Shown: piece by piece, positions 610-32,748 of the stretch
Numbering within the stretch: position 1 is the first letter of the stretch
Layout of the letters: each line of letters starts with the position of its first letter
NCBI GenBank assembly: GCA_014843695.1
Contig: CM026401.1
Span: 45,691,175-45,755,174, forward strand
Reading direction: 5' to 3'
Source of the DNA: Archivesica marissinica
Lineage: Eukaryota; Mollusca; Bivalvia; Venerida; Vesicomyidae
DNA: 64,000 nt
Made by a program: the position numbers and the translations under genes
The notes under the pieces: generated by a model
The model's database searches: none
Told to the model about the DNA's origin: nothing
Seen by the model: the letters and a program-made list of their open reading frames with translations, nothing else

Positions 610-748
610 GGACCGGTGACCGTGCGTGTAGAGTCTATGTCCATGGATAGAACTGAAGCACGATCCGACAAATTCACGGAACAACAAGCTTTTTGGAACG
701 TCCCTCTACATGAAACAAACATTCTCTGTGATGTAGTTGTAACTAAAG
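610..748 (+). CDS. VWA8: VWA8 exon (first in window), acceptor ambiguous
   Basis: The open frame reads GPVTVRVESMSMD, then DKFTEQQAFWNVPLHE, and ends TK before the donor gtgaga at 749, leaving one base (phase 1). That base pairs correctly with the two-base start of the next exon. The preferred acceptor is gtgtag ending at 609. A second gtag ending at 631 would start the exon at 632, also with a usable phase. The upstream array repeats both the acceptor and the first exon bases, so the true site needs RNA evidence. Residues 1-46 of the visible product; no recognised motif, probably the beta-rich region between the AAA+ and VWA parts. Confidence 0.68.
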
Positions 749-783
749 GTGAGATATATTTGTCAAAATCCCTTCCAGCTAGC

Positions 784-1122
784 CAACTTGTGCCAACTCT
801 CGACCGGTACCAACTCTCGACCGGTACCAACTCTCGACCGGTACCAACTCTCAACCGGTACCAACTCTCGACCGGTACCAACTCTCGACCGGTACTAACT
901 CTCGACCGGTACCAACTCTCAACCAGTAACAACTCTCGACCGGTACCAACTCTCAACCGGTACCAAATCACAACCGGTAACAATTTTCAACCGGTACAAA
1001 CTCTCAACCGGTAACAATTCTCAACCGGTACAAACTCTCAACCAACTCTCCACCGGTACCAACTTTCAACTTGTACCAACTCTCAACTGGTACCAACTCT
1101 TGACCGGTACCCACTCTCAACA
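784..1122 (+). repeat. 17-bp minisatellite (ggtaccaactctcgacc)
   Basis: Roughly twenty copies of a 17-bp unit, degenerating toward the 3' end, lying in the intron 36 bp after the donor at 749. No splice-site sequence is seen in the unit. Confidence 0.9.
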
Positions 1123-1226
1123 ATGGTTCATATTTAGCCAGATTTCTCGGATAAATCCCATTATTTCCATCCACAATATACTTACGTAATGATAAGCTCA
1201 TTACCACAATTTACCTGGTATGTCAA

Positions 1227-1785
1227 AAAAGTATCCAAGCTCCTGGCTGTATATGATGTTTCTATGTTCACATATTATCCAAGCTCCTGGCTGTATATGA
1301 TGTTTCTATGTTCACATATTATCCAAGCTCCTGGCTATATATGATGTTTCTATGTTCACATATTATCCAAGCTCCTGGCTGTATATGATGTTTCTATGTT
1401 GTTCACATGTTATCCAAGCTCCTGGCTGTATATGATGTTTCTATGTTCACATATTATCCAAGCTCCTGGCTGTATATGATGTTTCTATGTTCACATATTA
1501 TCCAATCTCTGGCTGTATATGATTTTCTATGTTGTTCACATATTATCCAGCTCCTGGCGTATATGATGTTTCTATGTTCACATATTATCCAAGCTCCTGG
1601 CTGTATATGATGTTTCTATGTTCACATATTATCCAAGCTCCTGGCTGTATATGATGTTTCTATGTTCACATATTATCCAAGCTCCTGGCTGTATATGATG
1701 TTTCTATGTTCACATATTATCCAAGCTCCTGGCTGTATATGATGTTTCTATGTTCACATATTATCCAAGCTCCTGGCTGTATATG
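1227..1785 (+). repeat. 44-bp minisatellite
   Basis: About a dozen tandem copies of a 44-bp unit beginning atccaagctcctggctgta, with a few indel variants around 1500-1560. Intronic. Confidence 0.92.
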
Positions 1786-2087
1786 ATATGGGTTTTTATT
1801 GGGGGGGATTTTGTCCGCCTTTGTCAATTACAAATTATGGATGGACAAAACATGTTGCTCCAAAAAAAATGTTTACGCCAAATATTTTCGCCAATTCACA
1901 AAATTTAGCACCAATATATGTTTTTTGACGCCATTGGCAACCGCTAGCTGGAATCGTGGAATCGTCTTTGACTACTACATTGCTTGTGAATATGCCACCC
2001 TCTCCAGTGTGTATTAATATCTATTGCTGATTTTCGCTGATAATCGGTGAATTTATAAAGAAGTGTAATCATGAAGAACAGAGTTTG
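1786..2087. other. Intronic sequence with no recognised feature
   Basis: About 300 bp between two minisatellites. It contains a G-run near 1800 and otherwise AT-rich unique sequence; I see no exon or repeat here. Confidence 0.5.
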
Positions 2088-2563
2088 CAGACAAACTTAA
2101 ACCTGTCTACAGTATTACATACAGACAAACTTAAACCTGTCTACATTATTACATACAGACAAACTTAAACCTGTCTACAGTATTACATACAGACAAACTT
2201 AAACCTGTCTACAGTATTACATACTGACAAACTTAAACCTGTCTACAGTATTACATACAGACAAACTTAAACCTGTCTACAGTATTACATACAGACAAAC
2301 TTAAACCTGTCTACAGTATTACATACAGACAACCTTAAACCTGTCTACAGTATTACATACAGACAAACTTAAACCTGTCTACAGTATTACATACAGACAA
2401 CCTTAAACCTGTCTACAGTATTACATACAGACAAACTTAAACCTGTCTACAGTATTACATACAGACAAACTTAAACCTGTCTACAGTATTACATACAGAA
2501 AAACTTAAACCTGTCTACAGTATTACATACAGACAAATATAAACCTGTCCACAATATTACATA
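2088..2563 (+). repeat. 34-bp minisatellite
   Basis: About fourteen near-identical tandem copies of a 34-bp unit beginning acagacaaacttaaacctgt, the last copy diverged. Intronic. Confidence 0.93.
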
Positions 2564-2823
2564 CAATTGTTTTGATTTAAACTTGCACTGACATATTGCA
2601 ATTCTTCAGCATTTGATGGTAGAGTAAGACCCCAGATGCCCCTCTCCCAGCTGCCCCTCTAGGTAATATTTCAGGCACCAGGGTAGAACCACCGATTCCA
2701 CAAACCAACTGCATAGCTTCCTCTCATGAAAGAAATGGACTCCTCCCCTTGAGTTTTATGAAGGCCCAATATAAACATTTGTATTTCAGGAGGGATCTAC
2801 ACAAGTATTTTATATTTAACCCT

Positions 2824-3121
2824 ACAGACGGATCTGTAGTCCAGTGGTTAACACGTTGGACTGGTAAACCAGGGATCTCATGTTCGATCCCCCCGTCTGA
2901 CCCTAATAAAATTAACAGTCTTTCAATCGGGACTTTAAACCGAGGTCTTGTGCCGGTGCTTTACACTGTGCACGTAAAAGAACTAGAGGAGACTCTGGAA
3001 TGGGTCTCTGTCTATCATTGCACTATCCTCCAAAAATCTAAAATGTGTAATCTCTTCAGGAGGCGTATCTTTTATGGACAACCGGTAGCGACGATAAATA
3101 AATGTAAAACACACACACAAC
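2824..3121 (+). mobile_element. SINE family A, near full length
   Basis: The head resembles a tRNA, with a B box (ggttcgatccc-like, here tgttcgatcccc) after a Thr-like anticodon arm. A conserved body follows (gacctaataaaattaacagtctttcag-like) and the tail reads gataaataaatgtaaaac then (ac)n. About 290 bp. At least ten copies or fragments of this family lie in the window on both strands. Confidence 0.85.
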
Positions 3122-3198
3122 ACTCGATCCTGTTGACATTGTGTACATTATTAAAGACAACATATGTATATAATAAATATATAACTATTGCATTTCAG

Positions 3199-3416
3199 CA
3201 ATAAACAGAAGTCCGGGCCGCACAAGTACCGATATAATCCACATCGGAACGGCTAACCCTGTAGGCCTGTTCTCCATGAACATCCGTACCATGACCGCTA
3301 ACTTCCTGGACATGTATGATGTGTTCCCAATGATCAGCGGCTCGTACAGACCCTATGTCAGACTCTACCCCCTGGGTGCCCCGCTGGACAATAACATAAT
3401 CCTGCACGAAGAAGTG
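3199..3416 (+). CDS. VWA8: VWA8 exon 2 in window
   Basis: Acceptor catttcag ends at 3198 and donor gtaaac begins at 3417. The exon starts with two bases completing the codon left by the exon at 610-748 and ends in phase 0. It encodes about 73 residues including TDIIHIGTANPVGLFSMNIR and SGSYRPYVRLYPLGAP, a beta-strand-rich stretch of VWA8. The preceding intron holds three minisatellites and a SINE. Confidence 0.9.
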
Positions 3417-3455
3417 GTAAACATTTATGTTTGTATTTTTTAAGGAATGAATCGC

Positions 3456-3745
3456 AGTAAGCTCGATGGAAACTATCAACCTGTGATTCATTACTTACAT
3501 TTACTTTAATTATTTTTTTCAATGATGAGAAATAAATCACATTTAAAATGTAATTAGGCCAGATTTTCGGTGTGCCAGACCTGGTTAGCTCCATGGAAAC
3601 TATCAAACGGTGACTCATTACTTATATTTACTTTAATTATTTTTTTCAATGATGAGAAATAAATCACATTTTAAATGTAATTAGGCCAGATTTTTGGTGT
3701 GCCAGACCTGGTTAGCTCCATGGAAACTATCAACCCGTGATTCAA
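3456..3745 (+). repeat. ~130-bp tandem duplication, later split by insertions
   Basis: Units contain aactatcaac then gtgattcattactta, a T-rich stretch, ttttcaatgatgagaaata and gtgtgccagacctgg. Further pieces at 4054-4080 and 4375-4462 show the array was broken by a TIR element (3757-4053) and a SINE (4081-4370). Confidence 0.8.
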
Positions 3746-3756
3746 TACTTATACAG

Positions 3757-4053
3757 GGATCATTCTAGAGGGCGATGTGGGCGAAATTGTCGCCCTAGGG
3801 ACCCTGACTTCGCCCTCTGGGGGCCCCACTTCTCCCTGGGTTTTTACGATTTTCAAACAAAATGTTGTCTAGTAAGATATACTGGCCCATTATAAAGCAC
3901 TCCTTCTATTCAAATGTTGTATTTAATGGTTGTATTGTACATTTTAACCCTACATTTTAACCCTATTTTGCAGAAGTATATTAAAGAACACCATTTAAGG
4001 AAGCGATCACGCGCTTTCTCACTTCTCCCAAAAATTCTGACCTAGAATGAACC
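3757..4053. mobile_element. Short TIR element (MITE-like), ggatcattctag ends
   Basis: Begins ggatcattctagagggcga and ends ctagaatgaacc, the approximate reverse complement of its start. The flanks share cttata (before 3757 and after 4053), consistent with a target duplication inside the ~130-bp repeat. A related left end occurs at 25391-25480. Confidence 0.62.
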
Positions 4054-4080
4054 ATGCTTATATTTACTTTAATTATTTTG

Positions 4081-4370
4081 CAGACGGATCTGTAGTCCAG
4101 TGGTAACACGCTGGACTGGTAATCCAGGGATCGCAGGTTCGATCCCCCGTCTGACCCTAATAAAATTAACAGTCTTTCAGATGGGACGTTAAACCGAGGT
4201 CTCGTGTCGGTGCTTTACACCGTGCACGTAAAAGAACCAGAGGAGATTCTGGAATGGGTCTCTGTCTGTATCATTGTACTATCCTCCAAAATCTAAAATG
4301 ACTAATATCTTCAGGAGGCGTCGCTCATATGGGCAACCGGTAGCGATGATAAATAAACGTAAAACACACA
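4081..4370 (+). mobile_element. SINE family A, full length
   Basis: The best preserved copy of family A. It has a tRNA-like head with gtagtccagtggtaacacg and a B box ggttcgatccc. The body ends caaccggtagcgatgataaa and the tail is taaaacacaca. It sits inside the ~130-bp tandem repeat, with AT-rich flanking similarity suggesting a target duplication. Confidence 0.88.
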
Positions 4371-4502
4371 AATTAATTTATTTTTTTCAATGATGAGAAA
4401 ATATAAAACACTTTACATTTAAAATCTATAATTAGGTCAGATTTTCAGTGTGCCAGACCTGGTAATTATATCATCCTTGGAACAGCATAGTCCTGTGCAG
4501 TG

Positions 4503-4746
4503 GAAGTCGTGATAGCCCAGTGGATGCACGTTCGCTTCAGGTGCGAAAGGTCCGGAGTTCGAGCCCCGCTGGAGCCATTACGATTGTTCCCTTAGGCAAG
4601 GCGTTTACATTCCACATTGCCTCTTCTCTCTCCTTCATGGCGATGGATTCTATCAGGAATGAGGTCTCGAGAGTGATTAATATAAGTTGAAAGAACTTGT
4701 TTCGCAATCGAGCTAAAATAAATTTGTATAAACTAACTAAACTAAA
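4503..4746 (+). mobile_element. SINE family D
   Basis: A tRNA-like head (gatagcccagtggatgcacg, B box gagttcgagcccc) is followed by a body with ttgcctcttctctctccttc and the shared tail agtgattaatataagttg. A piece of the same tail reappears at 5054-5102 after a minisatellite, so the tail was duplicated or split. Confidence 0.8.
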
Positions 4747-4779
4747 AATGAGAATAACATTTCCTCCTCGGAATGCACA

Positions 4780-5045
4780 GCTACCGTACCTGTATGTAGA
4801 CTTGGATAATATAACCCCTAGCTACCGTACCTGTATGTAGACTTGGATAATATAACCCCTAGCTACCGTACCTGTATGTAGACTTGGATAATATAACCCC
4901 TAGCTACCGTACCTGTATGTAGACTTGGATGATATAACCCCTAGCTACCGTACCTGTATGTAGACTTGGATGATATAACCCCTAGCTACCGTACCTGTAT
5001 GTAGACTTGGACGATATAACCCCCAGCTACGGTACCTGGTATGTT
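4780..5045 (+). repeat. 41-bp minisatellite
   Basis: About six and a half copies of a 41-bp unit containing gctaccgtacctgtatgtag and ending ataacccct, between two pieces of SINE D tail. Confidence 0.92.
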
Positions 5046-5470
5046 TTAGACTTGTGATTAATATAAGTTGAAAGAACTTGTTTCGCAATTGTATAAACTA
5101 ACAGCATAGTCTGTAAGATATGCCTATTCTTACAAGATGTCTGTGTATGAATGCGCCAGAGTATCAAAGAAAGGCTGCCCCAACACTGTGAATGCGCACG
5201 CCTGTATTTTCGAGTGCGCATGTCGGTTGATTTTACCCGCAATAGTTTTCTTTGGCATCAGGATGACTTGTACATGGAACATGAAAAGTGGGTCATTTCT
5301 GCCCGACGATCTATGCTGCAGCCTTGCCTCCCACTTGCCCCCGTCAGTGCAGAGGGTATCCCACTCATCAAGTGTTATTTTTGTTCATCATTTTCATTTC
5401 ACATATGCACACGCCCACCTAATATCTTGTCAGTTTTTTCTTTAATAATATTTTATTGCATTTTTTTCTG

Positions 5471-5759
5471 TTTTTTTACATTTATTTATCGTCGCTACCA
5501 GTTGCCCATATGAGCGACGCCTCCTGAAGAGATTAGTCATTTTAGATTTTGGAGGATAGTGCATGATACAGACAGAGACCCATTCCAGAATCTCCTCTGG
5601 TTCTTTTACGTGCACGGTGTAAAGCACCGACACGAGACCTCGGTTTAACGTCCCATCTGAAAGACTGTTAATTTTATTAGGATCAGACGGGGGGATCGAA
5701 TATGCGATCCCTGGATTACCAGTCCAGCGTGTTACCACTGGACTACATACCCATCTGTG
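5471..5759 (-). mobile_element. SINE family A, full length, reverse
   Basis: Reverse copy: the tail end (atttatttatcgtcgctacc) is at 5480 and the tRNA-like head (accactggactaca) at about 5735-5747. The sequence from 5103 to 5470 before it holds nothing I recognise. Confidence 0.87.
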
Positions 5760-6042
5760 CATTTTTTTCCATACATTACAGTACAATTATACACACAATG
5801 AAATACGTGGAAAACCATATGAAATTATATTAGGATTTATTATTATTGCTGTATAAGATTTAATCTGGGGGGAAAAGCAAATGGGTTGGGCTACAAGTTA
5901 GTCAGGGGTACCCACCAAATAAGGAAAAATGTTAAACATGAAATATCATGCATCATTCTTTGCAAGCCGATTTCCTGCCGACTTCATGACGGAAAATATT
6001 TTGCTATATGCTACTAACTGGATTTTACATTGTTCCTTGCAG

Positions 6043-6162
6043 ACAAACACGATACTGAATATCGACTTTGAGACTGGTGAAATATGGCGTCTCCTGACAC
6101 AGAGTTTACCACAAACAGCTCCAGAACGACGCAGATTTACGTCTCCGTCTGCAACCAAATCT
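6043..6162 (+). CDS. VWA8: VWA8 exon 3 in window
   Basis: Acceptor ttccttgcag ends at 6042; donor gtaagt begins at 6163. Forty codons, phase 0 at both ends, reading TNTILNIDFETGEIWRLL and ending in PSATKS. The last exon bases plus the donor are the apparent seed of the 37-bp minisatellite that begins at this junction (6157-7213). Confidence 0.9.
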
Positions 6163-7213
6163 GTAAGTTCTAACAGCCACAGTATGCAACCAAATCGGTA
6201 CGTTCTATCAGCCACAGTCTGTAAGCGTAAATCTGTATGTTCTAACAACCACAGTCTGTAAGCGTAAATCTGTAAGTTCTAACAGCCACAGTCTGTAAGC
6301 GTAAATCTGTATGTTCTAACAACCACAGTCTGTAAGTGTAAATCTGTACGTTCTAACAACCACAGTCTGTAAGCGTAAATCTGTACGTTCTAACAACCAC
6401 AGTCTGTAAGTGTAAATCTATATGTTCTAACAACCACAGTCTGTAAGTGTAAATATGTACGTTCTAACAGCCACAGTCTGTAAGTGTAAATCTGTACGTT
6501 CTAACAACCACAGTCTGTAAGTGTAAATCTGTACGTTCTAACAACCACAGTCTGTAAGCATAAATCTGTATGTTCTAACAACCACAGTATGTAAGTGTAA
6601 ATCTGTACGTTCTAACAACCACAGTCTGTAAGCATAAATCTGTATGTTCTAACAACCACAGTCTTTAAGTGTAAATCTATATGTTCTAACAACCACAGTC
6701 TGTAAGTGTAAATCTGTATGTTCTAACAGCCACAGTCTGTAAGTGTAAATCTGTACATTCTAACAGCCACAGTCTGTAAGTGTAAATCTGTACGTTCTAA
6801 CAGCCACAGTCTGTAAGTGTAAATCTGTACGTTCTAACAGCCACAGTCTGTAAGTGTAAATCTGTACATTCTAACAGCCACAGTCTGTAAGTGTAAATCT
6901 GTACGTTCTAACAACCACAGTCTGTAAGTGTAAATCTGTACGTTCTAACAACCACAGTCTGTAAGTGTAAATCTGTACGTTCTAACAACCACAGTCTGTA
7001 AGGTAAATCTGTACGTTCTAACAGCCACAGTCTGTAAGTGTAAATCTGTACGTTCTAACAACCACAGTCTGTAAGCGTAAATCTGTACGTTCTAACAGCC
7101 ACAGTCTGTAAGTGTAAATCTGTATGTTCTAACAGCCACAGTCTGTAAGTGTAAATCTGTATGTTCTAACAGCCACAGTCTGTAAGTGTAAATCTGTACG
7201 TTCTAACAGCCAG
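6157..7213 (+). repeat. 37-bp minisatellite seeded on the donor of exon 6043-6162
   Basis: About 28 copies of a unit with aaatctgtacgttctaacaa and ccacagtctgtaagtgt. The exon ends AAATCT and the donor is gtaagttctaaca, so the array starts exactly at the exon-intron junction and repeats it. The unit has two GT donor-like sites (tct/gtacgt and tct/gtaagt). Confidence 0.92.
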
Positions 7214-7911: not shown

Positions 7912-7995
7912 TATTGTGATACATTACTGGGTATAGCAAATGTCTGAATCTGATCTATTATACAATTTGCAACTTAAATCCAGTCAGAGTATGTT

Positions 7996-8937: not shown

Positions 8938-9400
8938 ATTGATATATAGTGTGTCTTTCTATGTTTTCTATATGATATATAGTGTGTCTTCTATGTTTTC
9001 TATATGATATATAGTGTCTTCTATGTTTTCTATATAATATATAGTGTCTTCTATGTTTTCTATATGATATATAGTGTCTTCTATGTTTTCTATATGATAT
9101 ATAGTGTCTTCTATATTTTCTATATAATATATAGTGTCTTCTATGTTTTCTATATGATATATAGTGTCTTCTATGTTTTCTATATGATATATAGTGTCTT
9201 CTATGTTTTCTATATAATATATAGTGTCGTCTATGTTTTCTATATGATATATATTGTCTTCTATGTTTTCTATATGATATATAGTGTGTCTTCTATGTTT
9301 TCTATATGATATATAGTGTCTTCTATGTTTTCTATATGATATATAGTGTCTTCTATGTTTCTATATGATATATAGTGTCTTCTATGTTTTCTATATATTT
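8938..9400 (+). repeat. 30-bp minisatellite abutting the acceptor of exon 9405-9530
   Basis: About fifteen copies of a 30-bp unit (tgatatatagtgtcttctat then gttttctata). The last copy runs into atttgcag at 9404, so the T-rich unit supplies the pyrimidine tract; the AG itself is not in the unit. Confidence 0.92.
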
Positions 9401-12705: not shown

Positions 12706-12846
12706 TAAAATACGCACAGAGCTCACAGCACGTACAAACATGTACAAAACTAATCTAACGAGACATGTCCTCCCCATTGTTCATCATTGTTACCCGCTGT
12801 TGTTCATTATTCATATCACTATCTTCAGTTATCTTTGTCTTTCCAT

Positions 12847-14100
12847 CTCCGTGGTCTAGTGGTTAAGGTCGCTGACTTGTATTCCACTGTAACCTATCAT
12901 CGCTGATGGTCACGGGTTCGAACCCCGCTTACGGAGTTTGGTGCACCAAGTGCTGTTGTTCATTATTCATATCACTTTCTTCAGTTATCTTTGTCTTTCC
13001 ATCTCCGTGGTCTAGTGGTTAAGGTCGCTGACTTTTATGCCACTGTAACCTATCATCGCTGATGGTCACGGGTTCGAGCCCTGCTTACGGAGTTTGGTGC
13101 ACCAAGTGCTGTTGTTCATTATTCATATCACTATCTTCAGTTATCTTTGTCTTTCCATCTCCGTGGTCTAGTAGTTAAGGTCGCTGACTTGTATTCCACT
13201 GTAACCTATCATCGCTGATGGTCACGGGTTCGAACCCCGCTTACGGAGTTTGGTGCACCAAGTGCTGTTGTTCATTATTCATATCACTTTCTTCAGTTAT
13301 CTTTGTCTTTCCATCTCCATGGTCTAGTGGTTAAGGTCGCTGACTTTTATGCCACTGTAACCTATCATTGCTGATGGTCACGGGTTCGAGCCCCGCTTAC
13401 GGAGTTTGGTGCACCAAGTGCTGTTGTTCATTATTCATATCACTATTTTCAGTTATCTTTGTCTTTCCATCTCCGTGGTCTAGTGGTTAAGGTCGCTGAC
13501 TTTTATGCCACTGTAACCTATCATCGCTGATGGTCACGGGTTCGAGCCCCGCTTACGGAGTTTGGTGCACCAAGTGCTGTTGTTCATTATTCATATCACT
13601 ATCTTCAGTTATCTTTGTCTTTCCATCTCCGTGGTCTAGTGGTTAAGGTCGCTGACTTGTATTCCACTGTAACCTATCATCGCTGATGGTCACGGGTTCG
13701 AGCCCCGCTTACGGAGTTTGGTGCACCAAGTGCTGTTGTTCATTATTCATATCACTATCTTCAGTTATCTTTGTCTTTCCATCTCCGTGGTCTAGTGGTT
13801 AAGGTCGCTGACTTTTATGCCACTGTAACCTATCATCGCTGATGGTCACGGGTTCGAGCCCCGCTTACGGAGTTTGGTGCACCAAGTGCTGTCGTTCATT
13901 ATTCATATCACTTTCTTCAGTTATCTCCATCTTCGTGGTCGAGTGGATTACGGTCGCTGACTTGTATACCACTGTAACCTATCATCGCTGATGGTCACGG
14001 GTTCGAGCCCCGCCCAGGCCGTGTCTATTAATATTAAAATGTTGGCAGTTTCTTATGGAGTTTAGTGCACCAAGTACCGGTTAACCGCCGGAGCCTGCTA
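12847..14100 (+). repeat. 156-bp tandem array of SINE C heads, ending in a longer copy
   Basis: Seven copies at an exact 156-bp spacing (starts 12847, 13003, 13159, 13315, 13471, 13627, 13783). Each has ctccgtggtctagtggttaa, a B box cgggttcgarcccc and a shared spacer ending gtctttccat. An eighth diverged copy (about 13930-14100) continues further into the SINE C body. Each unit keeps A- and B-box-like sequences, i.e. a potential pol III internal promoter. Confidence 0.92.
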
Positions 14101-18372: not shown

Positions 18373-18639
18373 CAGGTTTATACTAGAGCAGCGAAGGGGT
18401 AGGTGTGGGAGGGGATAGATAATATTGCTAACTTAAGGTGATTGACAGCTAATAATATTTAAATCAAAGAGGCAGTAAGGCGGAAAACTATCAAATGGTG
18501 AGTTTGAGTTTATAAAGGTCTGCCCATCAAGAGTTTTTTAAATCAAATAAAGGGCAAATGGGTGGGGTTAATAATGGGCAGGGTGGGGCGCCCGGTCATT
18601 CTGCTCTAGATAAAACCCCTATATGAGGCTTATAATCAG
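18373..18639. other. Intronic sequence, nothing recognised
   Basis: Unique, moderately G-rich intronic sequence between SINE B and the 59-bp array; no exon, SINE or repeat identified. Confidence 0.45.
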
Positions 18640-21600
18640 CAGACGTTCAGTTTCTTGCTTTATGTATGTATGCAAACTGTTTCTTTTCAGACAATCAGCA
18701 GACGTTCAGTTTCTTGCTTTATGTATGTATGCAAACTGTCTCTTTTCAGACAATCAGCAGACGTTCAGTTTCTTGCTTTATGTATGTATGCAAACTGTCT
18801 CTTTTCAGACAAACAGCAGACATTCAGTTTCTTGCTTTATGTATGTATGCAAACTGTCTCTTTTCAGACAATCAGCAGACGTTCAGTTTCTTGCTTTATG
18901 TATGTATGCAAACTGTCTCTTTTCAGACAAACAGCAGATGTTCATTTTCTTGCTTTATGTATGTATGCAAACTGTCTCTTTTCAGACAAACAGCAGACGT
19001 TCAGTTTCATGCTTTATGTATGTATGCAAACTGTTTCTTTTAAGACAAACAGCAGACGTTCAGTTTCTTGTTTTATGTATGTATGCAAACTGTCTCTTTT
19101 CAGACAAACAGCAGATGTTCAGTTTCTTGCTTTATGTATGTATGCAAACTGTCTCTTTTCAGACAAACAGCAGACGTTCATTTTCTTGCTTTATGTATGT
19201 ATGCAAACTGTCTCTTTTCAGACAAACAGCAGACGTTCAGTTTCATGCTTTATGTATGTATGCAAACTGTCTCTTTTCAGACAAACAGTAGAAGTTCAGT
19301 TTCTTGCTTTATGTATGTATGTATGCAAACTGTCTCTTTTCAGACAAACAGCAGATGTTCATTTTCTTGCTTTATGTATGTATGTATGCAAACTGTCTCT
19401 TTTCAGACAAACAGCAGACGTTCAGTTTCTTGCTTTATGTATGTATGCAAACTATTTCTTTTCAGACAAACAGCAGATGTTCAGTTTCTTGCTTTATGTA
19501 TGTATGTATGCAAACTGTCTCTTTTCAGACAAACAGCAGATGTTCATTTTCTTGCTTTATGTATGTATGCAAACTGTCTCTTTTCAGACAAACAGCAGAC
19601 GTTCAGTTTCTTGCTTTATGTATGTATGCAAACTGTCTCTTTTCAGACAATCAGCAGACGTTCAGTTTCATGCTTTATGTATGTATGCAAACTGTCTCTT
19701 TTCAGACAAACAGCAGACGTTCAGTTTCATGCTTTTATGTATGTATGCAAACTGTTTCTTTTAAGACAAACAGCAGACGTTCAGTTTCTTGTTTTATGTA
19801 TGTATGCAAACTGTCTCTTTTCAGACAAACAGCAGATGTTCAGTTTCTTGCTTTATGTATGTATGCAAACTGTCTCTTTTCAGACAAATAGCAGACGTTC
19901 ATTTTCTTGCTTTATGTATGTATGCAAACTGTCTCTTTTCAGACAAACAGCAGACGTTCAGTTTCATGCTTTATGTGTGTATGCAAACTGTCTCTTTTCA
20001 GACAAACAGTAGGAGTTCAGTTTCTTGCTTTATGTATGTATGTATGCAAACTGTCTCTTTTCAGACAAACAGCAGACGTTCAGTTTCTTGTTTTATGTAT
20101 GTATGCAAACTGTCTCTTTTCAGACAAACAGCAGACGTTCATTTTCTTGCTTTATGTATGTATGCAAACTGTCTCTTTTCAGACAAACAGCAGACATTCA
20201 GTTTCATGCTTTATGTATGTATGCAAACTGTCTCTTTTCAGACAAACAGTAGAAGTTCATTTTCTTGCTTTATGTATGTATGTATGCAAACTGTCTCTTT
20301 TCAGACAAACAGCAGACGTTCAGTTTCTTGCTTTATGTATGTATGTATGCAAACTGTCTCTTTTCAGACAAACAGCAGACGTTCAGTTTCTTGCTTTATG
20401 TATTTATGCAAACTGTCTCTTTTCAGACAAACAGCAGACGTTCAGTTTCTTGCTTTATGTATGTATGCAAACTGTTTCTTTTCAGACAAACAGCAGACGT
20501 TCAGTTTCTTGCTTTATGTATGTATGCAAACTATTTCTTTTCAGACAAACAGCAGATGTTCAGTTTCTTGCTTTATGTATGTATGTATGCAAACTGTCTC
20601 TTTTCAGACAAACAGCAGATGTTCATTTTCTTGCTTTATGTATGTATGCAAACTGTCTCTTTTCAGACAAACAGCAGACGTTCAGTTTCTTGCTTTATGT
20701 ATGTATGCAAACTGTCTCTTTTCAGACAATCAGCAGACGTTCAGTTTCATGCTTTATGTATGTATGCAAACTGTCTCTTTTCAGACAAACAGCAGACGTT
20801 CAGTTTCATGCTTCATGTATGTATGCAAACTGTTTCTTTTAAGACAAACAGCAGACGTTCAGTTTCTTGTTTTATGTATGTATGCAAACTGTCTCTTTTC
20901 AGACAAACAGCAGATGTTCAGTTTCTTGCTTTATGTATGTATGCAAACTGTCTCTTTTCAGACAAACAGCAGACGTTCATTTTCTTGCTTTATGTATGTA
21001 TGCAAACTGTCTCTTTTCAGACAAACAGCAGACGTTCAGTTTCATGCTTTATGTATGTATGCAAACTGTCTCTTTTCAGACAAACAGTAGGAGTTCAGTT
21101 TCTTGCTTTATGTATGTATGTATGCAAACTGTCTCTTTTCAGACAAACAGCAGACGTTCAGTTTCTTGCTTTATGTATGTATGCAAACTGTCTCTTTTCA
21201 GACAAACAGCAGATGTTCATTTTCTTGCTTTATGTATGTATGCAAACTGTTTCTTTTCAGACAAACAGCAGACGTTCAGTTTCTTGTTTTATGTATGTAT
21301 GCAAACTGTCTCTTTTCAGACAAACAGCAGATGTTCAGTTTCTTGCTTTATGTATGTATGCAAACTGTCTCTTTTCAGACAAACAGCAGACGTTCATTTT
21401 CTTGCTTTATGTATGTATGCAAACTGTCTCTTTTCAGACAAACAGCAGACGTTCAGTTTCATGCTTTATGTATGTATGCAAACTGTCTCTTTTCAGACAA
21501 ACAGTAGAAGTTCATTTTCTTGCTTTATGTATGTATGTATGCAAACTGTCTCTTTTCAGACAAACAGCAGACATTCAGTTTCTTGCTTTATGTATGTATG

Positions 21601-22452
21601 CAAACTGTCTCTTTTCAGACAAACAGCAGACGTTCAGTTTCTTGCTTTATGTATGTATGTAAACTGTCTCTTTTCAGACAAACAGCAGACGTTCAGTTTC
21701 TTGCTTTATGTATGTATGCAAACTGTCTCTTTTCAGACAAACAGCAGACGTTCAGTTTCTTGCTTTATGTATGTATGCAAACTGTCTCTTTTCAGACAAA
21801 CAGCAGACGTTCAGTTTCTTGCTTTATGTATGTATGCAAACTGTTTCTTTTCAGACAAACAGCAGACGTTCAGTTTCTTGCTTTATGTATGTATGCAAAC
21901 TGTTTCTTTTCAGACAAACAGCAGATGTTCAGTTTCTTACTTTATGTATGTATGCAAACTATTTCTTTTCAGACAAACAGCAGATGTTCATTTTCTTGCT
22001 TTATGTATGTATGCAAACTGTCTCTTTTCAGACAAACAGCAGACGTTCAGTTTCATGCTTTATGTATGTATGTATGCAAACTGTCTCTTTTCAGACAAAC
22101 AGTAGAAGTTCAGTTTCTTGCTTTATGTATGTATGTATGCAAACTGTCTCTTTTCAGACAAACAGCAGACGTTCAGTTTCTTGCTTTATGTATGTATGCA
22201 AACTGTCTCTTTTCAGACAAACAGCAGACGTTCAGTTTCTTGCTTTATGTATGTATGCAAACTGTCTCTTTTCAGACAAACAGCAGACGTTCAGTTTCTT
22301 GCTTTATGTATGTATGCAAACTGTCTCTTTTCAGACAAACAGCAGACGTTCAGTTTCTTGCTTTATGTATGTATGCAAACTGTCTCTTTTCAGACAAACA
22401 GCAGACGTTCAGTTTCTTGCTTTATGTATGCATGCAAACTGTTTCTTTTCAG
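18640..22452 (+). repeat. 59-bp minisatellite, ~64 copies, repeating the acceptor of exon 22453
   Basis: The unit contains gcaaactgtctcttttcag followed by ACAAACAGCAGACG. The real junction is gcaaactgtttcttttcag then ACAAGCATTCC. So every unit carries a pyrimidine tract plus AG and a near-copy of the first exon bases. A 4-bp tatg insertion variant recurs. All three forward frames are largely open, including the exon's own frame. Confidence 0.94.
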
Positions 22453-22531
22453 ACAAGCATTCCCATGTGAGTGGTTTGTTAGAAGTATCTGATCTACCCA
22501 ATCATAAACTCCGATACATAGCAGTTCCAGG
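22453..22531 (+). CDS. VWA8: VWA8 exon 9 in window (79 bp), flanked by two splice-site arrays
   Basis: Acceptor ttcttttcag ends at 22452; donor gtaagt begins at 22532. The codons read DKHSHVSGLLEVSDLPNHKL then RYIAVP, with two bases left over. The exon lies between two minisatellites, both with 59-bp units. The upstream one repeats its acceptor; the downstream one repeats its last ~45 bases plus the donor. Phases to both neighbours are correct. Confidence 0.9.
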
Positions 22532-23170
22532 GTAAGTTACAATATATCTGATCTACCCAATCACAAACTCCGATACATAGCAGTTCCAGGGTAAGTTACA
22601 ATGTGTCTGATCTACCCAATCACAAACTCCGATACATAGCACGTCCAGGGTAAGTTACAATGTGCCTGAACTATCCAATCACAAACTCTGATACATAGCA
22701 CATCCAGGGTAAGTTACAATGTGTCTGATCTATCCAATCACAACCTCCGATACATAGCACGTCCAGGGTAAGTTACAATGTGTCTGATCTATCCAATCAC
22801 AATCTCCGATACATAGCACGTCCAGGGTAAGTTACAATGTGTCTGAACTATCCAATCACAAACTCTGATACATAGCAGTTCCAGGGTAAGTTACAATGTG
22901 CCTGAACTATCCAATCACAATCTCCGATACATAGCACGTTCAGGGTAAGTTACAATGTGTCTGAACTATCCAATCACAAACTCTTGATACATAGCAGTTC
23001 CAGGGTAAGTTACAATGTGCCTGAACTATCCAATCACAATCTCCGATACATAGCACGTCCAGGGTAAGTTACAATATGCCTGAACTATCCAATCACAATC
23101 TCCGATACATAGCACGTCCAGGGTAAGTTACAATGTGCCTGAACTATCCAATCACAATCTCCGATACATA
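22532..23170 (+). repeat. 59-bp minisatellite copying exon end plus donor of exon 22453-22531
   Basis: About eleven copies. Each has the donor gtaagttacaatg, then a copy of the last ~45 bases of the exon (tctgatctacccaatcac, aaactccgatacatagca, ccagg), then gtaagt again. The array starts at the real donor. Confidence 0.94.
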
Positions 23171-23324
23171 GAATTATTTACTATATGCTTTTCAGAGTGA
23201 AACATACGATGTTCATAATTTCTAAGGTAGATTTAGGAATAAAACAATTATGGGTATATTACAACGTTATATTTTGTGTATTGTTAGGTTAACAAAAATC
23301 ATCACTAAAATGTTCAGTGTGTAC

Positions 23325-24512: not shown

Positions 24513-24539
24513 TGAGCACAACAAAGCTATCATATATCT

Positions 24540-25080
24540 ACGTAAGACATCCTATTTTAGGTAACGTATGAAAATATCATATCTACGTAAGACATTCTAT
24601 TTAGGTAACGTATGAAAATATTGTGTATAAGGAAGACATTCTATTTTAGGTGACATATGAAAATATTATATCTAAGTAAGACATTCTATTTTAGGTGACA
24701 TATGAAAATATTATATCTAAGTAAGACATTCTATTTTAGGTGACATATGAAAATATTATATCTAAGTAAGACATTCTATTTTAGGTAACATATGAAAATA
24801 TCGTATCTAAGTAAGACATCCTATTTTAGGTAATGTATGGAAATATTATATCTAAGTAAGACATTCTATTTTAGGTAACGTATGAAAATATCGTATCTAA
24901 GTAAGACATCCTATTTTAGATAATGTATGGAAATATTATATCTAAGTAAGACATCCTATTTTAGGTAACGTATGAAAATATCATATCTAAGTAAGACATT
25001 CTATTTTAGGTAATGTATGAAAATATCGTATCTAAGAAAGTCATTCTATTTTAGTATATAAGTAGGACATTCTATTTTAG
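24540..25080 (+). repeat. 45-bp minisatellite copying the acceptor and start of exon 25081
   Basis: About twelve copies of gtaacgtatgaaaatatc, atatctaagtaagacattc and tattttag. The real exon begins GTAACGTATGACAG after ctattttag, so the unit joins intron end and first ~11 exon bases. The last copy is the real junction. Confidence 0.94.
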
Positions 25081-25189
25081 GTAACGTATGACAGAGACAG
25101 TGGTCGTACAGCAGACGACCCGAAACATGGAAAAATTGACCCCAAAAATACACCACATGTGGGTGGAAACACCTGGGCGGGTGGAACAG
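25081..25189 (+). CDS. VWA8: VWA8 exon 11 in window
   Basis: Acceptor ctattttag ends at 25080; donor gtaggt begins at 25190. It encodes VTYDRDSG, then KHGKIDPKNTPHVGGNTWAG and GT, ending with one base. HVGGNTWAGGTG is a well conserved VWA8 block. The exon start GTAACGTATGA is repeated with its acceptor in the 45-bp array immediately upstream. Confidence 0.93.
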
Positions 25190-25830: not shown

Positions 25831-25867
25831 TAATTCAATTAGTTACTTGCTTTACTTGTTTGTGTAG

Positions 25868-26024
25868 GTGGGAGTAACACAGCTGGTTTAGGAGGGATAG
25901 GTGGCCCATACAGATTAGATGCCGGTCATAATGTAGCCCAGGTGGCCCAGTCGGAGAAAGATAATGTACCGGAACACGTACTGAAAGCAGCCAGAGAGAT
26001 GGCACAGAAAGCATTCAAAGAAAG
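25868..26024 (+). CDS. VWA8: VWA8 exon 12 in window
   Basis: Acceptor tttgtgtag ends at 25867; donor gtaggt begins at 26025. It encodes GGSNTAGLGGIGGPYRLDAG and then VAQSEKDNVPEHVLKAAREM to FKE, leaving two bases. The glycine-rich stretch continues the conserved block of the previous exon. The last ~60 exon bases and the donor are repeated in the downstream ~92-bp array (26025-26370). Confidence 0.93.
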
Positions 26025-26370
26025 GTAGGTCGGTATGTACCGTAGGAGGTAGATAGTGTACCGGAACATGTACTGAAAGCAGCCAGAGAGATGGCACAGA
26101 AAGCATTTAAAGAAAGGTAGGTCGGGTATGTAACGTAGGAGGTAGATAGTGTACCGGAACATGTACTGAAAGCAGCCAGAGAGATGGCACAGAAAGCATT
26201 CAAAGAAAGGTAGGTCAGGTATGTAACGTAGGAACACGTACTGAAAGCAGCCAGAGAGATGGCACAGAAAGCATTTAAAGAAAGGTAGGTCGGGTATGTA
26301 ACGTAGGAGGTAGATAGTGTACCGGAACATGTACTGAAAGCAGCCAGAGAGATGGCACAGAAAGCATTAA
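26025..26370 (+). repeat. ~92-bp repeat copying exon 25868-26024 end plus donor
   Basis: About four copies. Each contains gtaccggaacatgtactgaa, agcagccagagagatggcac and agaaagcatt, copies of the last ~60 exon bases, and most end aaagaaag followed by gtaggt. Copy three lacks the agatagtgtacc part. The copies keep the exon's reading frame within the copied part. Confidence 0.93.
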
Positions 26371-26552: not shown

Positions 26553-26661
26553 ATTGAAGGAAATTCATATGAGCGAGTACGATGCCGAGAGTTACGAGAG
26601 TTTCTCCGGTCATGTGAGACGACAGGTTCAATCACTGAGGGTCATCATAGACAGTCTGCAG
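26553..26661 (+). CDS. VWA8: VWA8 exon 13 in window
   Basis: Acceptor gtaattcag ends at 26552; donor gtagca begins at 26662. It reads LKEIHMSEYDAESYESFSG then HVRRQVQSLRVIIDSLQ, probably helical, and ends in phase 0. This segment directly precedes the VWA domain in VWA8. An 18-bp minisatellite starts about 20 bp after the donor. Confidence 0.93.
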
Positions 26662-26683
26662 GTAGCAATCACAGAGGATAGGC

Positions 26684-27228: not shown

Positions 27229-27252
27229 ATTTATATAGAAATTGCACTTTTT

Positions 27253-27454
27253 TAATACTTTATTTATTTTACAACGATTGTGTAGCAAGTTCTAACAACT
27301 TATATTAATCACCCTCGTTGGTGCGGATGAAAGCATAAATGTGGGAGGAAACTGGAGTACCTGGAAAAAACCCACATGTCCGATCTGACGACCACCGTAC
27401 CATCTCACATACATCCCTGTCCGAGGATCGAACCCGGGTTGCATTGGTGAGACG
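27253..27454 (-). mobile_element. SINE family B, reverse, head incomplete
   Basis: Antisense tail (ttacaacgattgtgtagc) to B box gatcgaacccgggttgcat; the outer part of the tRNA-like head is missing. Confidence 0.83.
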
Positions 27455-27583
27455 ATGTTATCAGAGAAATTCGAGTTAACCATGTCGACTTTATTAGTTG
27501 TATGGACTATTGTTTCGACTTTCAACAGTACGTGCATCGTGTAATCTCATTGTTTACAATGAAACTAATATAATATTGACATG

Positions 27584-27800
27584 AAGCCTCCGTGGTGTAA
27601 TGTATACGATGTTCACCTTGTAATCGGGAGTTTGAGCCGCGTCTGAACCACGGTGGTGGTGTCCTTAAGTAAAATACATAAAACCGCATTGCCTCTTCTC
27701 TCTCCATCATGGCGGTCGATTCCATCAGGGACGAGGTCTTGAGAGCGATTAAACTACTGTTCATTTGTAGTCGAGCTATAGGAAATGTGTATAGACTAAT
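27584..27800 (+). mobile_element. SINE family D with a different tRNA-like head
   Basis: The head cctccgtggtgtaatgtata with gggagtttgagccgcg differs from other D copies, while the body (attgcctcttctctctccat, ccatcagggacgaggtcttg) is the same family. It ends 15 bp before exon 27815-27940. Confidence 0.75.
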
Positions 27801-27814
27801 TTACTATTATTTAG

Positions 27815-27940
27815 GCCAAGAGCAAGGAACGTCAGTGGCTAAAAAATCAGACGCACGGAGATCTCGATGATGCTAAGCTTATTGATGGTCTCACAGGAGA
27901 AAAAACTGTGTATAAAAGGCGCGGTGAAAAAGAACCAGAG
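27815..27940 (+). CDS. VWA8: VWA8 exon 14 in window
   Basis: Acceptor ttatttag ends at 27814; donor gtatgt begins at 27941. Forty-two codons, phase 0 at both ends: AKSKERQWLKNQTHGDLDDA, then KLIDGLTGEKTVYKRRGE and KEPE. The DDAKLIDGLTGEK block is strongly VWA8-like and leads into the VWA domain. The acceptor lies just after the 3' end of a SINE D copy. Confidence 0.93.
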
Positions 27941-28045
27941 GTATGTATTGAAGAACAGTTCACTGATGGTTTTGCAAGGTGGGGGATTTATATCAAAATG
28001 TACACAAATGTGAGAACTAGAAGTCACTGTGCATTGGTTGGAATG

Positions 28046-30483
28046 CTGTAGCCTGGTGTACAATCTGCCTTGTAGCCTGGTGTACAGTCTGCCTTGTAAC
28101 CTGGTGTACAGTCTGCCTTGTAACCTGGTGTACAGTCTGCCTTGTAGCCTGGTGTACAGTCTGCCTTGTAGCCTGGTGTACAGTCTGCCTTGTAGCCTGG
28201 TGTACAGTCTGCCTTGTGTACAGTCTGCCTTGTAGCCTGGTGTACAGTCTGCATGTTAGCCTGGTGTACAGTCTGCATGTTAGCCTGGTGTACAGTCTGC
28301 ATGGTAGCCTGGTGTACAGTCTGCCTTGTAGTCTGGTGTACAGTCTGCATGTTAGCCTGGTGTACAGTCTGCCTTGTAGCCTGGTGTACAGTCTGCCTTG
28401 TAGCCTGGTGTACAGTCTGCCTTGTAGCATGGTGTACAGTCTGCCTTGTAGCCTGGTGTACAGTCTGCCTTGTAGCCCCGGTACAGTCTGCCTGTAGCCT
28501 GTGTACAGTCTGCCTGTAGCATGGTGTACAGTCTGCCTTGTAGTCTGCTGTACAGTCTGCATGTTAGCCTGGTGTACAGTCTGCCTTGTAGCCTGGTGTA
28601 CAGTCTGCCTTGTAGCATGGTGTACAGTCTGCCTTGTAGCCTGGTGTACAGTCTGCCTTGTAGCCTGGTGTACAGTCTGCCTTGTAGCCTGCTGTACAGT
28701 CTGCATTTTAGCCTGGTGTACAGTCTGCCTTGTAGCCTGGTGTACAGTCTGCCTTGTAGCCTGGTGTACAGTCTGCCTTGTAGCCTGGTGTACAGTCTGC
28801 CTTGTAGCCTGGTGTACAGTCTGCCTTGTAGCCTGGTGTACAGTCTGCCTTGTAGCCTGGTGTACAGTCTGCCTTGTAGCCTGGTGTACAGTCTGCCTTG
28901 TAGCCTGGTGTACAGTCTGCCTTGTAGCCTGGTGTACAGTCTGCATGTTAGCCTGGTGTACAGTCTGCCTTGTAGCCTGGTGTACAGTCTGCCTTGTAGC
29001 ATGGTGTACAGTCTGCCTTGTAGCCTGGTGTACAGTCTGCCTTGTAGCCTGGTGTACAGTCTGCCTTGTAGCCTGGTGTACAGTCTGCCTTGTAGCCTGG
29101 TGTACAGTCTGCCTTGTAGCCTGGTGTACAGTCTGCATGTTAGCCTGGTGTACAGTCTGCATGGTAGCCTGGTGTACAGTCTGCATGGTAGCCTGGTGTA
29201 CAGTATGCATGGTAGCCTGGTGTACAGTCTGCCTTGTAGCCTGGTGTACAGTCTGCATGTTAGCCTGGTGTACAGTCTGCCTTGTAGCCTGGTGTACAGT
29301 CTGCCTTGTAGCCTGGTGTACAGTCTGCCTTGTAGCCTTGTGTACAGTCTGCCTTGTAGCCTGGTGTACAGTCTGCATGTTAGCCTGGTGTATAGTCTGC
29401 CTTGTAGCCTGGTGTACAGTCTGCATGTTAGCCTGGTGTACAGTCTGCCTTGTAGCCTGGTGTACAGTCTGCATGTTAGCCTGGTGTACAGTCTGCCTTG
29501 TAGCCTGGTGTACAGTCTGCCTTTTAGCATGGTGTACAGTCTGCCTTGTAGTCTGGTGTACAGTCTGCATGTTAGCCTGGTGTACAGTCTGCCTTGTAGC
29601 CTGGTGTACAGTCTGCCTTTAGCCTGGTGTACAGTCTGCCTTGTAGCCTGGTGTACAGTCTGCATGTTAGCCTGGTGTACAGTCTGCCTTGTAGCCTGGT
29701 GTACAGTCTGCCTTGTAGCCTGGTGTACAGTCTGCCTTGTAGCCTGGTGTACAGTCTGCCTTGTAGCATGGTGTACAGTCTGCCTTGTAGCCTGGTGTAC
29801 AGTCTGCCTTGTAGCCTGTGTACAGTCTGCCTTGTAGCCTGCCTTGTAGCTGGTGTACAGTCTGCCTTGTAGCATGGTGTACAGTCTGCCTTGTAGCCTG
29901 GTGTACAGTCTGCCTTGTAGCCTGGTGTACAGTCTGCCTTGTAGCCTGGTGTACAGTCTTAGCCTTGTGTACAGTCTGCCTTGTAGCCTGGTGTACAGTC
30001 TGCCTTGTAGCCTGGTGTACAGTCTGCCTTGTAGCCTGGTGTACAGTCTGCATGTTAGCCTGGTGTACAGTCTGCATGGTAGCCTGGTGTACAGTCTGCA
30101 TGGTAGCCTGGTGTACAGTATGCATGGTAGCCTGGTGTACAGTCTGCCTTGTAGCCTGGTGTACAGTCTGCATGTTAGCCTGGTGTACAGTCTGCATGGT
30201 AGCCTGGTGTACAGTCTGCCTTGTAGCCTGGTGTACAGTCTGCCTTGTAGCATGGTGTACAGTCTGCCTTGTAGCCTGGTGTACAGTCTGCATGGTAGCC
30301 TGGTGTACAGTCTGCCTTGTAGCCTGGTGTACAGTCTGCCTATTAGCCTGGTGTACAGTCTGCATGTTAGCCTAGTGTACAGTCTACATGGTAGCCTGGT
30401 GTACAGTCTGCATGGTAGCCTGGTGTACAGTCTGCCTTGTAGCCTGGTGTACAGTCTGCCTTGTAGCCTGGTGTACAGTCTGC
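28046..30483 (+). repeat. 24-bp minisatellite, ~100 copies
   Basis: The unit is gcctggtgtacagtctgcc plus ttgta, with catgtta and catggta variants recurring in the same order at about 29145-29250 and 30040-30150, suggesting block duplication. Open frames on both strands are a repetition artefact (24 = 8 codons). Confidence 0.95.
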
Positions 30484-30607
30484 AATTCTGCCTATTAACC
30501 TGGTGGGAGAATAAGGATATCGGAGAATGCGGTGATTTGATGATGGGAAAATGATGTGACACTCAAATTCTAGCAGCTGTTTTTATATTATTATTATTAT
30601 TATATAG

Positions 30608-30766
30608 ATGGGTACCCAGCAAGAACACCCGAAGAAGCTGCGTCTGCTAGTTGATGTGTCTGGCAGTATGTACAGATTTAATGGGCATGACCGCCGCCTC
30701 GAGAGAGAAATGGAGACAGCTATTATGACCATGGAGGCCCTAGAAGGTTACGAGGAGAAAATCATG
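30608..30766 (+). CDS. VWA8: VWA8 exon 15 in window: VWA domain start, MIDAS DxSxS
   Basis: Acceptor attatatag ends at 30607; donor gtgagt begins at 30767. Fifty-three codons, phase 0 both sides. KKLRLLVDVSGSMYRFNG carries the DxSxS metal-binding motif that opens the von Willebrand A fold, followed by DRRLEREMETAIMTMEALEG. The exon begins with ATG, but this is an internal Met; the frame joins exons on both sides. Confidence 0.95.
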
Positions 30767-31137
30767 GTGAGTAGATGTGCATGTGTGGATGTATTCGGAA
30801 ATATGTACATATCACAATTACTGAATTAGATACACGAAAACGATTGAAATATTACGACAAAATACAAACATCTGTTGTCTGTCAATTTTGACACGCTGAT
30901 ACGCAACGGGAAGTAAACAAACTAGCACAGAGTACACATGCGTTTTACTCTCAGGAACTAGTTATGATACAGCGTCTTATGGTTTGATACGGGCTTGTGT
31001 CTTATCAGGCTGGAAAACACAGCGTATCAACCTGGGTTGTCGACAGTATTGTGGTAGGCAAATAACAGCACAAAGTAGGCGAACATTCATGTCTGAGTAA
31101 TATTGACAGTATAGCATTGAGGAGATGTATAATTGCT
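30767..31137. other. Intronic sequence, nothing recognised
   Basis: About 370 bp of unique sequence between the donor of exon 30608-30766 and the next array; I see no exon, SINE or inverted repeat. Confidence 0.5.
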
Positions 31138-32649
31138 CATTGATGATGATTTATTTGGCAGTTTGAGATAGTTGATATTATTTATTTGGCAGTTTGATAT
31201 AGTTGATATTATTTATTTGGCAGTTTGATATAGTTGATATTATTTATTTGGCAGTTTGATATAGTTGATATTATTTATTTGGCAGTTTGATATAGTTTAT
31301 ATTATTTATTTGGCAGTTTGAGATAGTTGATATTATTTATTTGGCAGTTTGATATAGTTGATATTATTTATTTGGCAGTTTGAGATAGTTGATATTATTT
31401 ATTTGGCAGTTTGATAAAGTTGATATTATTTATTTGGCAGTTTGAGATAGTTGATATTATTTATTTGGCAGTTTGATATAGTTGATATTATTTATTTGGC
31501 AGTTTGATAAAGTTGATATTATTTATTTGGCAGTTTGATATAGTTGATATTATTTATTTGGCAGTTTGATAAAGTTGATATTATTTATTTGGCAGTTTGA
31601 GATAGTAGATATTATTTATTTGGCAGTTTGAGATAGTTGATATTATTTATTTGGCAGTTTGATATAGTTGATATTATTTATTTGGCAGTTTGATAAAGTT
31701 GATATTATTTATTTGGCAGTTTGAGATAGTAGATATTATTTATTTGGCAGTTTGAGATAGTTGATATTATTTATTTGGCAGTTTGAGATAGTTGATATTA
31801 TTTATTTGGCAGTTTGAGATAGTTGATATTATTTATTTGGCAGTTTGATATAGTTGATATTATTTATTTGGCAGTTTGATAAAGTTGATATTATTTATTT
31901 GGCAGTTTGATATAGTTGATATTATTTATTTGGCAGTTTGATAAAGTTGATATTATTTATTTGGCAGTTTGAGATAGTAGATATTATTTATTTGGCAGTT
32001 TGAGATAGTTGATATTATTTATTTGGCAGTTTGATATAGTTGATATTATTTATTTGGCAGTTTGATAAAGTTGATATTATTTATTTGGCAGTTTGAGATA
32101 GTAGATATTATTTATTTGGCAGTTTGAGATAGTTGATATTATTTATTTGGCAGTTTGATATAGTTGATATTATTTATTTGGCAGTTTGAGATAGTTGATA
32201 TTATTTATTTGGCAGTTTGAGATAGTTGATATTATTTATTTGGCAGTTTGAGATAGTTGATATTATTTATTTGGCAGTTTGAGATAGTTGATATTATTTA
32301 TTTGGCAGTTTGATATAATTGATATTATTTATTTGGCAGTTTGATATACTTGATATTATTTATTTGGCAGTTTGAGATAGTTGATATTATTTATTTGGCA
32401 GTTTGAGATAGTTTATATTATTTATTTGGCAGTTTGAGATAGTTAATATTATTTATTTGGCAGTTTGATATAATTGATATTATTTATTTGGCAGTTTGAT
32501 ATACTTGATATTATTTATTTGGCAGTTTGAGATAGTTGATATTATTTATTTGGCAGTTTAATATAGTTTACATTATTTATTTGGCAGTTTGAGATAGTTG
32601 ATATTATTTATTTGGCAATTTGATATAGTTTATATTATTTATTTGGCAG
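31138..32649 (+). repeat. 31-bp minisatellite copying the acceptor and start of exon 32650
   Basis: About 48 copies of ttatttggcagtttgatata plus gttgatatta with gata/gaga/gataa variants. The real junction is ttatttggcag then TTTGATATAGTTGGCC, so each unit holds the acceptor AG and about 13 exon bases. The array flows into the true exon without a break. Confidence 0.95.
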
Positions 32650-32748
32650 TTTGATATAGTTGGCCATTCAGGAGAAGACCATAAAGTTCATCTAACCAGC
32701 TTTGAGAAACCACCAAAGAACAACAAGGAACGACTTCAAGTTGTAAAG
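32650..32748 (+). CDS. VWA8: VWA8 exon 16 in window
   Basis: Acceptor tttggcag ends at 32649; donor gtgaat begins at 32749. Thirty-three codons: FDIVGHSGEDHKVHL, then TSFEKPPKNNKERLQVVK, phase 0 at both ends. The first exon bases (TTTGATATAGTTG) together with the acceptor form the repeated unit of the 31-bp array directly upstream, so dozens of decoy acceptors precede the real one. Confidence 0.95.

Follow-up and report, generated by a model that had tools for sequence, protein, structure and literature searches.

Splice-junction minisatellites in VWA8 and other genes of the clam Archivesica marissinica

Our analysis of a 64,000-nucleotide stretch of the Archivesica marissinica genome (contig CM026401.1, here C16, positions 45691175–45755174 of a 1.54-Gb assembly; hereafter the window), which carries the 3′ half of VWA8 on its plus strand, shows that seven splice junctions of this gene lie inside minisatellites whose repeat units copy the junction itself. 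The original prediction, made from the letters of the window, had described this as a pattern of one gene; it proves to be wider, as 12 of 45 arrays sampled in genes other than VWA8 also span a junction, against 6.05 expected (P 0.011). We consider it rather probable that ordinary minisatellite birth, together with tolerance of arrays at exon edges, explains the pattern, and that an approximately two-fold excess at junctions arises mainly through the persistence of arrays founded there.

The exons were mapped by tblastn with VWA8 relatives (P0001, P0002, P0003 and P0007, the last from Patella vulgata), combined with phase and GT-AG boundaries. Among the best named relatives, the encoded protein is 78% identical to that of Mactra antiquata, 70% to that of Mya arenaria and 67% to that of Sinanodonta woodiana. 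The 3′ half of the gene is intact: 18 exons, from E1 (610–748) to E18 with the stop codon (35637–35743), join into a single open frame of 821 codons, and GT-AG boundaries are present at 17 of 17 introns. At the 17 exon joins the protein continues as in five other molluscs, and at the six array-carrying junctions compared no residue is gained or lost relative to them, the acceptor of E1 lying outside this comparison. At the level of protein sequence, this would speak to some extent against introns gained by tandem duplication. A small exon at 23196–23226, at first read as coding, was rejected, as homologs join E9 straight to E10. A Pfam search at an E-value of 0.001 returned no family for our first VWA8 query, which carried an erroneous frameshift in E8.

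All seven arrays were recovered with Tandem Repeats Finder (TRF) and the exon map where the original prediction had placed them, on the plus strand. At E1, a 61-bp array occupies 1–627 and extends ~1.8 kb upstream of the window, crossing the acceptor (609/610) with ~18 exon bases per unit. The donor of E3 (exon 6043–6162, junction 6162/6163) is crossed by 28.6 copies of a 37-bp unit at 6157–7212, the main unit of which takes in only 6 exon bases. Exon E9 (22453–22531) has a junction array at each end: a 59-bp array with 64 acceptor copies across its acceptor (18637–22456, junction 22452/22453; 4 exon bases per unit), and a 59-bp array of 11.6 copies across its donor (22488–23171, junction 22531/22532; 44 exon bases per unit). 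At E11 (25081–25189), ~12 copies of a 45-bp unit containing TTTTAG/GTAACG (the slash marking the junction) cross the acceptor (24533–25091, junction 25080/25081); TRF ends this array at the AG itself (25080), and its 11 exon bases were appended by eye. The donor of E12 (exon 25868–26024, junction 26024/26025) lies in ~4 copies of a 93-bp unit at 25959–26368 that holds 66 exon bases, and the acceptor of E16 (exon 32650–32748, junction 32649/32650) in a 31-bp array with 49 acceptor copies at 31140–32662 and ~12 exon bases per unit. A further 30-bp array at 8940–9396 is near-junction only, ending 8 bp short of exon E5 (9405) with the AG outside the array.

The units indeed copy the abutting junction together with exon bases, as predicted, the exon share running from 4 of 59 bases to 66 of 93, with the fewest exon bases at the E9 acceptor and the E3 donor. 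That each array contains the splice site of its exon follows from the sequence and the exon maps, and the intact protein suggests that this site is a working one. Taking minisatellites as head-to-tail repeats with units of ~10–100 bp, the 13 junction arrays found across the whole of VWA8 have units of 27–93 bp, while 4 of the 12 junction arrays in other genes have units of 104–210 bp.

For a chance expectation, arrays (TRF score of at least 150 in the window) were collapsed to one unit each and seeds of unit length were placed at random, those lying wholly in or over an exon being dropped. In the window, 7 of 20 arrays span one of 35 junctions against 2.25 expected (P 0.0038), and six runs with differing array choices gave P values of 0.0013–0.044. 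A stricter null, confined to ±400 bp of exons and using raw TRF ends, still left 6 of 18 arrays against 2.85 expected (P 0.048). Since the 3′ half of VWA8 had itself prompted the question, these probabilities are post hoc and the sets not seen beforehand carry more weight.

The first such set is the 5′ half of VWA8, mapped with the Mactra protein in the 120 kb upstream of the window. The map resolves 37 junctions there, and 6 of the 31 arrays cross one of them against 2.73 expected (P 0.048), or 9 against 3.35 if arrays within 10 bp are counted (P 0.004); a 16-kb duplicated intron was left out of this main test, and its inclusion gives 6 of 42 against 2.40 (P 0.030). These cases are no less clear than those of the window. 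Measured by TRF span, the donors share 3, 25, 42 and 68 exon bases with their arrays; the two acceptors share 20 and 29, and one of these acceptors recurs in ~74 copies. Counted over all of VWA8, with the half that prompted the question, 13 of its 50 arrays cross a junction where 4.9 would be expected (P 0.0008), and 17 against 6.0 lie within 10 bp. The automatic VWA8 map contained five unresolved introns; curated exons were substituted for the single one inside the window, and the others were omitted; an acceptor near 74420 of the concatenated sequence, uncounted because it belongs to such an intron, is probably a further case.

In other genes the pattern is uneven. The clathrin heavy chain gene has no array spanning a junction (0 of 10 against 1.36 expected, with 0 of 44 junctions spanned), one array lying 14 bp from a donor and therefore being uncounted, and VCP has one of 7 against 0.69 (30 junctions). 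A larger sample came from 38 exon windows, named only as matches of the VCP and clathrin searches, in which exon edges were set by splice consensus and open frame rather than by gene models. The VCP search returned 58 matches, 17 of them VCP itself; 38 of the other 41 were fetched as windows, the three omitted having the same scores as matches taken, and two weak clathrin matches were added, so that the first 20 windows represent 22 matches and the last 18 represent 16 VCP-search and 2 clathrin matches. In the first 20 windows the arrays were already visible when exon edges were chosen by eye, a step that was therefore unblinded; under a fixed automatic rule, 7 of 16 arrays span a junction against 2.56 expected. 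One of these seven (L062) was dropped, as its array derives from the donor of the preceding exon, outside the window fetched, and touches the acceptor by a single base; this array (1–456) consists of the exon tail plus a 23-base piece of intron and fills the intron almost to the next exon.

In the last 18 windows, edges were first set by the automatic rule, which flagged 6 of 12 arrays against 1.72 expected (P 0.0023). Inspection reduced this to 5 of 12 (P 0.015): L088 was dropped because its automatic acceptor was wrong and the array stops ~30 bp short, L085 was retained because the true acceptor is also spanned despite a similar error, and L084 was retained with ~2 shared exon bases and excluded from our strict counts (4 cases without it, P 0.07). 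Only flagged cases were inspected, so that misses among the remaining windows are possible. Together the 38 windows yield 6 of 16 plus 5 of 12, that is 11 of 28 arrays, against ~4.0 expected (P 0.0006). Four of them (L076, L081, L084 and L090) fall within ~28 kb at 2.757–2.785 Mb of contig C4, a density like that of VWA8, and perhaps belong to one gene.

When all unseen sets are pooled and tested against the local ±400 bp null, junction-spanning arrays number 18 of 69, where 9.23 would be expected (P 0.003; strict count 17, P 0.007), and they affect 18 of the 183 junctions, or 9.8% (95% interval 5.9–15.1%); the strict count for other genes without VWA8 is 11 (P 0.029). The claim that junction arrays exceed chance is thereby borne out in unseen sequence and unseen genes, but the excess is only about two-fold and is absent from clathrin.

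Arrays cover 57% of the VWA8 3′ half, 49% of the remaining window and 12–78% (mean 45%) of eight 10-kb stretches elsewhere at places that we chose. In a genome so packed with arrays many founding duplications must land near exons, and some overlap is unavoidable. We propose that a founding tandem duplication extends over an exon edge by chance, after which one complete junction would remain beside the exon; exon definition would pair the site closest to the exon with that at its opposite end, leaving the messenger RNA unchanged, and the array would then be free to grow and shrink inside the intron. Duplications wholly within exons would be removed by selection. Exon-adjacent sequence would be spared wholesale deletion and would form the oldest part of the intron, so that arrays founded there would persist and give rise to the about two-fold excess; a modest birth bias at exon edges may contribute. 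In the arrays themselves, the offset at which the unit crosses the junction differs from case to case, and the outermost copy stays joined to the intact exon. In the window half, 11 arrays lie across or at most 50 bp from a junction against 4.6 expected, which fits the prediction from persistence, and the non-spanning arrays by themselves show a tendency in this direction (P 0.06).

A precedent exists in human ABCA7, whose intron 18 contains a variable number tandem repeat (VNTR), a 25-bp minisatellite that adjoins exon 18 and takes in the splice donor of that exon; use of a spare donor retains one unit and shifts the frame, such retention apparently affects ~2% of transcripts, and the VNTR ranged from ~0.3 to 10.7 kb among the individuals examined (PMC5954066). 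From this case and from the intact clam protein we infer that the exon-side site is the one chosen.

The pace at which such arrays change can be seen in VWA8 itself, where the exons for residues ~507–861 are present twice in tandem (C16, ~45647–45680 kb; L016–L019). The duplicated stretch is 16–18 kb long, ~94–99% alike by segment, and is either an uncollapsed second haplotype or a real tandem duplicate; it is informative on array change in both cases. One and the same donor array has ~33 copies (one damaged) in one stretch and 4 in the other, and another array measures 806 vs 1549 bp. The exon-side copy of the former is the same in both stretches except for one base of the 85 shown, and its three exon-distal copies are also alike, so that the change in length is located nearer the exon. 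Similarity between copies leans toward a gradient away from the exon in 10 of 12 arrays, significantly in 2.

The units multiply splice sites as well as sequence. In the window arrays the AG or GT is intact in 167 of 170 spare copies, and the use of 163 of these 167 would bring a premature stop, which implies that splicing must in most cases select the copy beside the exon. Scored with a matrix built from the other sites of the gene, 77 of the 170 spare copies reach at least the score of the used site. They are similar to it in five arrays (E1, E11, E16, the E9 donor and E12), where strength cannot pick the right copy and position must, and mostly weaker at the E9 acceptor (8 of 63 as high) and the E3 donor (2 of 26).

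Several observations weigh against birth with tolerance as a sufficient account. The two-fold excess over the local null is more than random birth and tolerance would give, the remainder being argued to come from persistence, and under that null the 5′ half of VWA8 taken alone has 6 of 24 arrays against 3.17 expected (P 0.08). The splice core tends to be slightly better conserved than the remainder of the unit, with P values of 0.002–0.054 over five definitions of the core in the window arrays and 0.037–0.073 in the 5′ half, which neutral spare copies would not show. Decoy sites also appear, from their letters, to be disarmed in places: the six visible spare acceptors of the VCP array (L050, C12) read TAT where the used copy reads TAG, and in a VWA8 array close to a junction (acceptor at 89404 in the 5′ extension) the three spare copies displayed carry TA in place of AG. 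Furthermore, such arrays need not be harmless, as a longer VNTR in human ABCA7 is associated with more frequent skipping of the following exon (PMC5954066).

The strongest alternative is that a mutational process acting at exon–intron junctions, such as R-loops, replication stalling or break repair, causes more duplications to be born there, as the original prediction had suggested. The two-fold excess in unseen sequence, the surplus of near-junction arrays and a fresh two-copy case at L061 are what such a process would produce. However, the unit edges of the seven window arrays are scattered over the junction with no common offset (Kolmogorov–Smirnov p 0.36, n = 7), which speaks weakly against a machinery marking exon edges, and no young duplicate was found at 27 array-free junctions of the window half, a weak test, since the 2.8% found at 400 control points leads one to expect only ~0.8. 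None of the 44 clathrin junctions is affected either, and clathrin should be strongly transcribed. We regard junction-biased birth as an unlikely main cause.

Selection for spare sites, which might buffer the loss of a working site or tune splicing, appears improbable. In its favour is the retention of the splice dinucleotide, in 149 of 149 spare copies of the six 5′-half arrays and, with laxer matching, in 336 of 348 spare copies of all 13 VWA8 arrays, in addition to the window counts and the somewhat better-kept core. But high identity between copies accounts for much of this intactness, and core conservation is weak and depends on the definition used; moreover, almost all intact spares of the window would introduce a stop, copy number can differ as much as ~33 vs 4, and the six VCP spare acceptors are dead.

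A similarly low probability attaches to chance alone, with the excess a product of small samples and a simple null in an array-packed genome. Clathrin and VCP together give 1 array against 2.05 expected, other genes before the last 18 windows reach only 7 of 33 against 4.34 (P 0.13), and 4 of the 11 exon-window cases come from the one C4 cluster. Against this, the last 18 windows show the excess after inspection (less clearly without the 2-base case), the 38 windows without the C4 cluster retain 7 of 24 against 3.03 (P 0.023), and the pooled unseen sets deviate from the local null by the strict count also. An assembly artefact that places repeats against exons is very improbable: the 16–18 kb stretch of the 5′ half may be an uncollapsed haplotype, but both of its copies carry the same junction arrays, the exons are intact and in frame, and junction-spanning arrays occur on C4, C6, C10, C12, C14 and C16.

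Competition between duplicated splice sites was reportedly tested by Reed and Maniatis in 1986 in engineered constructs. In the clam, natural arrays set as many as 74 near-identical acceptors, or dozens of donors, beside a single exon; they occur in several genes and vary in length from copy to copy. Invariable choice of the exon-side site would strongly favour exon definition over first-AG scanning in a natural setting; otherwise the transcriptome of such animals would be noisier than annotated. They also bear on intron growth and on the difficult annotation of exon edges in repeat-rich genomes. By its title, a 1995 report in Nucleic Acids Research is said to describe a minisatellite with multiple splice donor sites in an interferon-induced transcript, a single case with many donors as in the clam donor arrays. 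A 2007 PNAS paper by Zhuo reportedly derives human introns from tandem arrays, again to judge by the title; these too are arrays with splice sites, but the subject is intron gain, unlike the clam case.

That no named description existed, as the original prediction held, was too strong a statement, since the ABCA7 donor VNTR and tandem repeats at exon–intron boundaries have been published. Like the ABCA7 VNTR, the clam arrays begin at or contain the splice site of their exon; the human case concerns one donor, the unit of which has GT as its first two bases, whereas the clam has acceptors as well as donors, units with up to 66–68 exon bases and about one in ten sampled junctions involved (PMC5954066). 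In human segmental duplications, tandem repeats at exon–intron boundaries affect many genes (Genome Biol 2009, PMC2812944); these can form novel introns or alternative splicing, whereas the clam protein is unchanged at the compared junctions. UBC has dual-specific splice sites in tandem repeats (Duan 2024, PMC10809524), and there, too, each tandem unit carries a splice site. AG/GT stands at the junction in 6 of 13 VWA8 arrays (acceptors of E11 and 113130; donors of E12, 66146, 82158 and 87795), only two of the six being acceptors, which makes recursive splicing a weak candidate for a general explanation. The UBC sites serve as donor and acceptor and delimit coding monomers, whereas the clam repeats are intronic.

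The literature listings consulted, with few subscription full texts among them, name no genome-wide class of junction minisatellites. Nor do those listings contain an earlier report of a genome in which about one in ten sampled junctions, acceptors included, lies in such an array. Tentatively, this may extend to a genome-wide class, in which about a tenth of all junctions would sit inside self-derived, hypervariable arrays of edge-biased birth and thousands of exons would face dozens of competing sites; we think this possible, with the odds somewhat against it.

Other repeats share the window. A 17-bp CCAACTCTCAACCGGTA minisatellite at 793–1121 has relatives at numerous loci spread over several chromosomes, and a search with 600–900 gave 224 genome matches, the best of which were listed, showing that some minisatellites are dispersed families. 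Minisatellite cover was very high in the eight 10-kb stretches (L021–L028). At 12796–14013 lies an array with a 156-bp unit that resembles, by eye, the head of a tRNA-derived short interspersed nuclear element. Open frames on the minus strand at 43086–44037 resemble, again by eye, a Tc1/mariner-type transposase, and a CA dinucleotide tract of 1.6 kb occupies 55645–57227.

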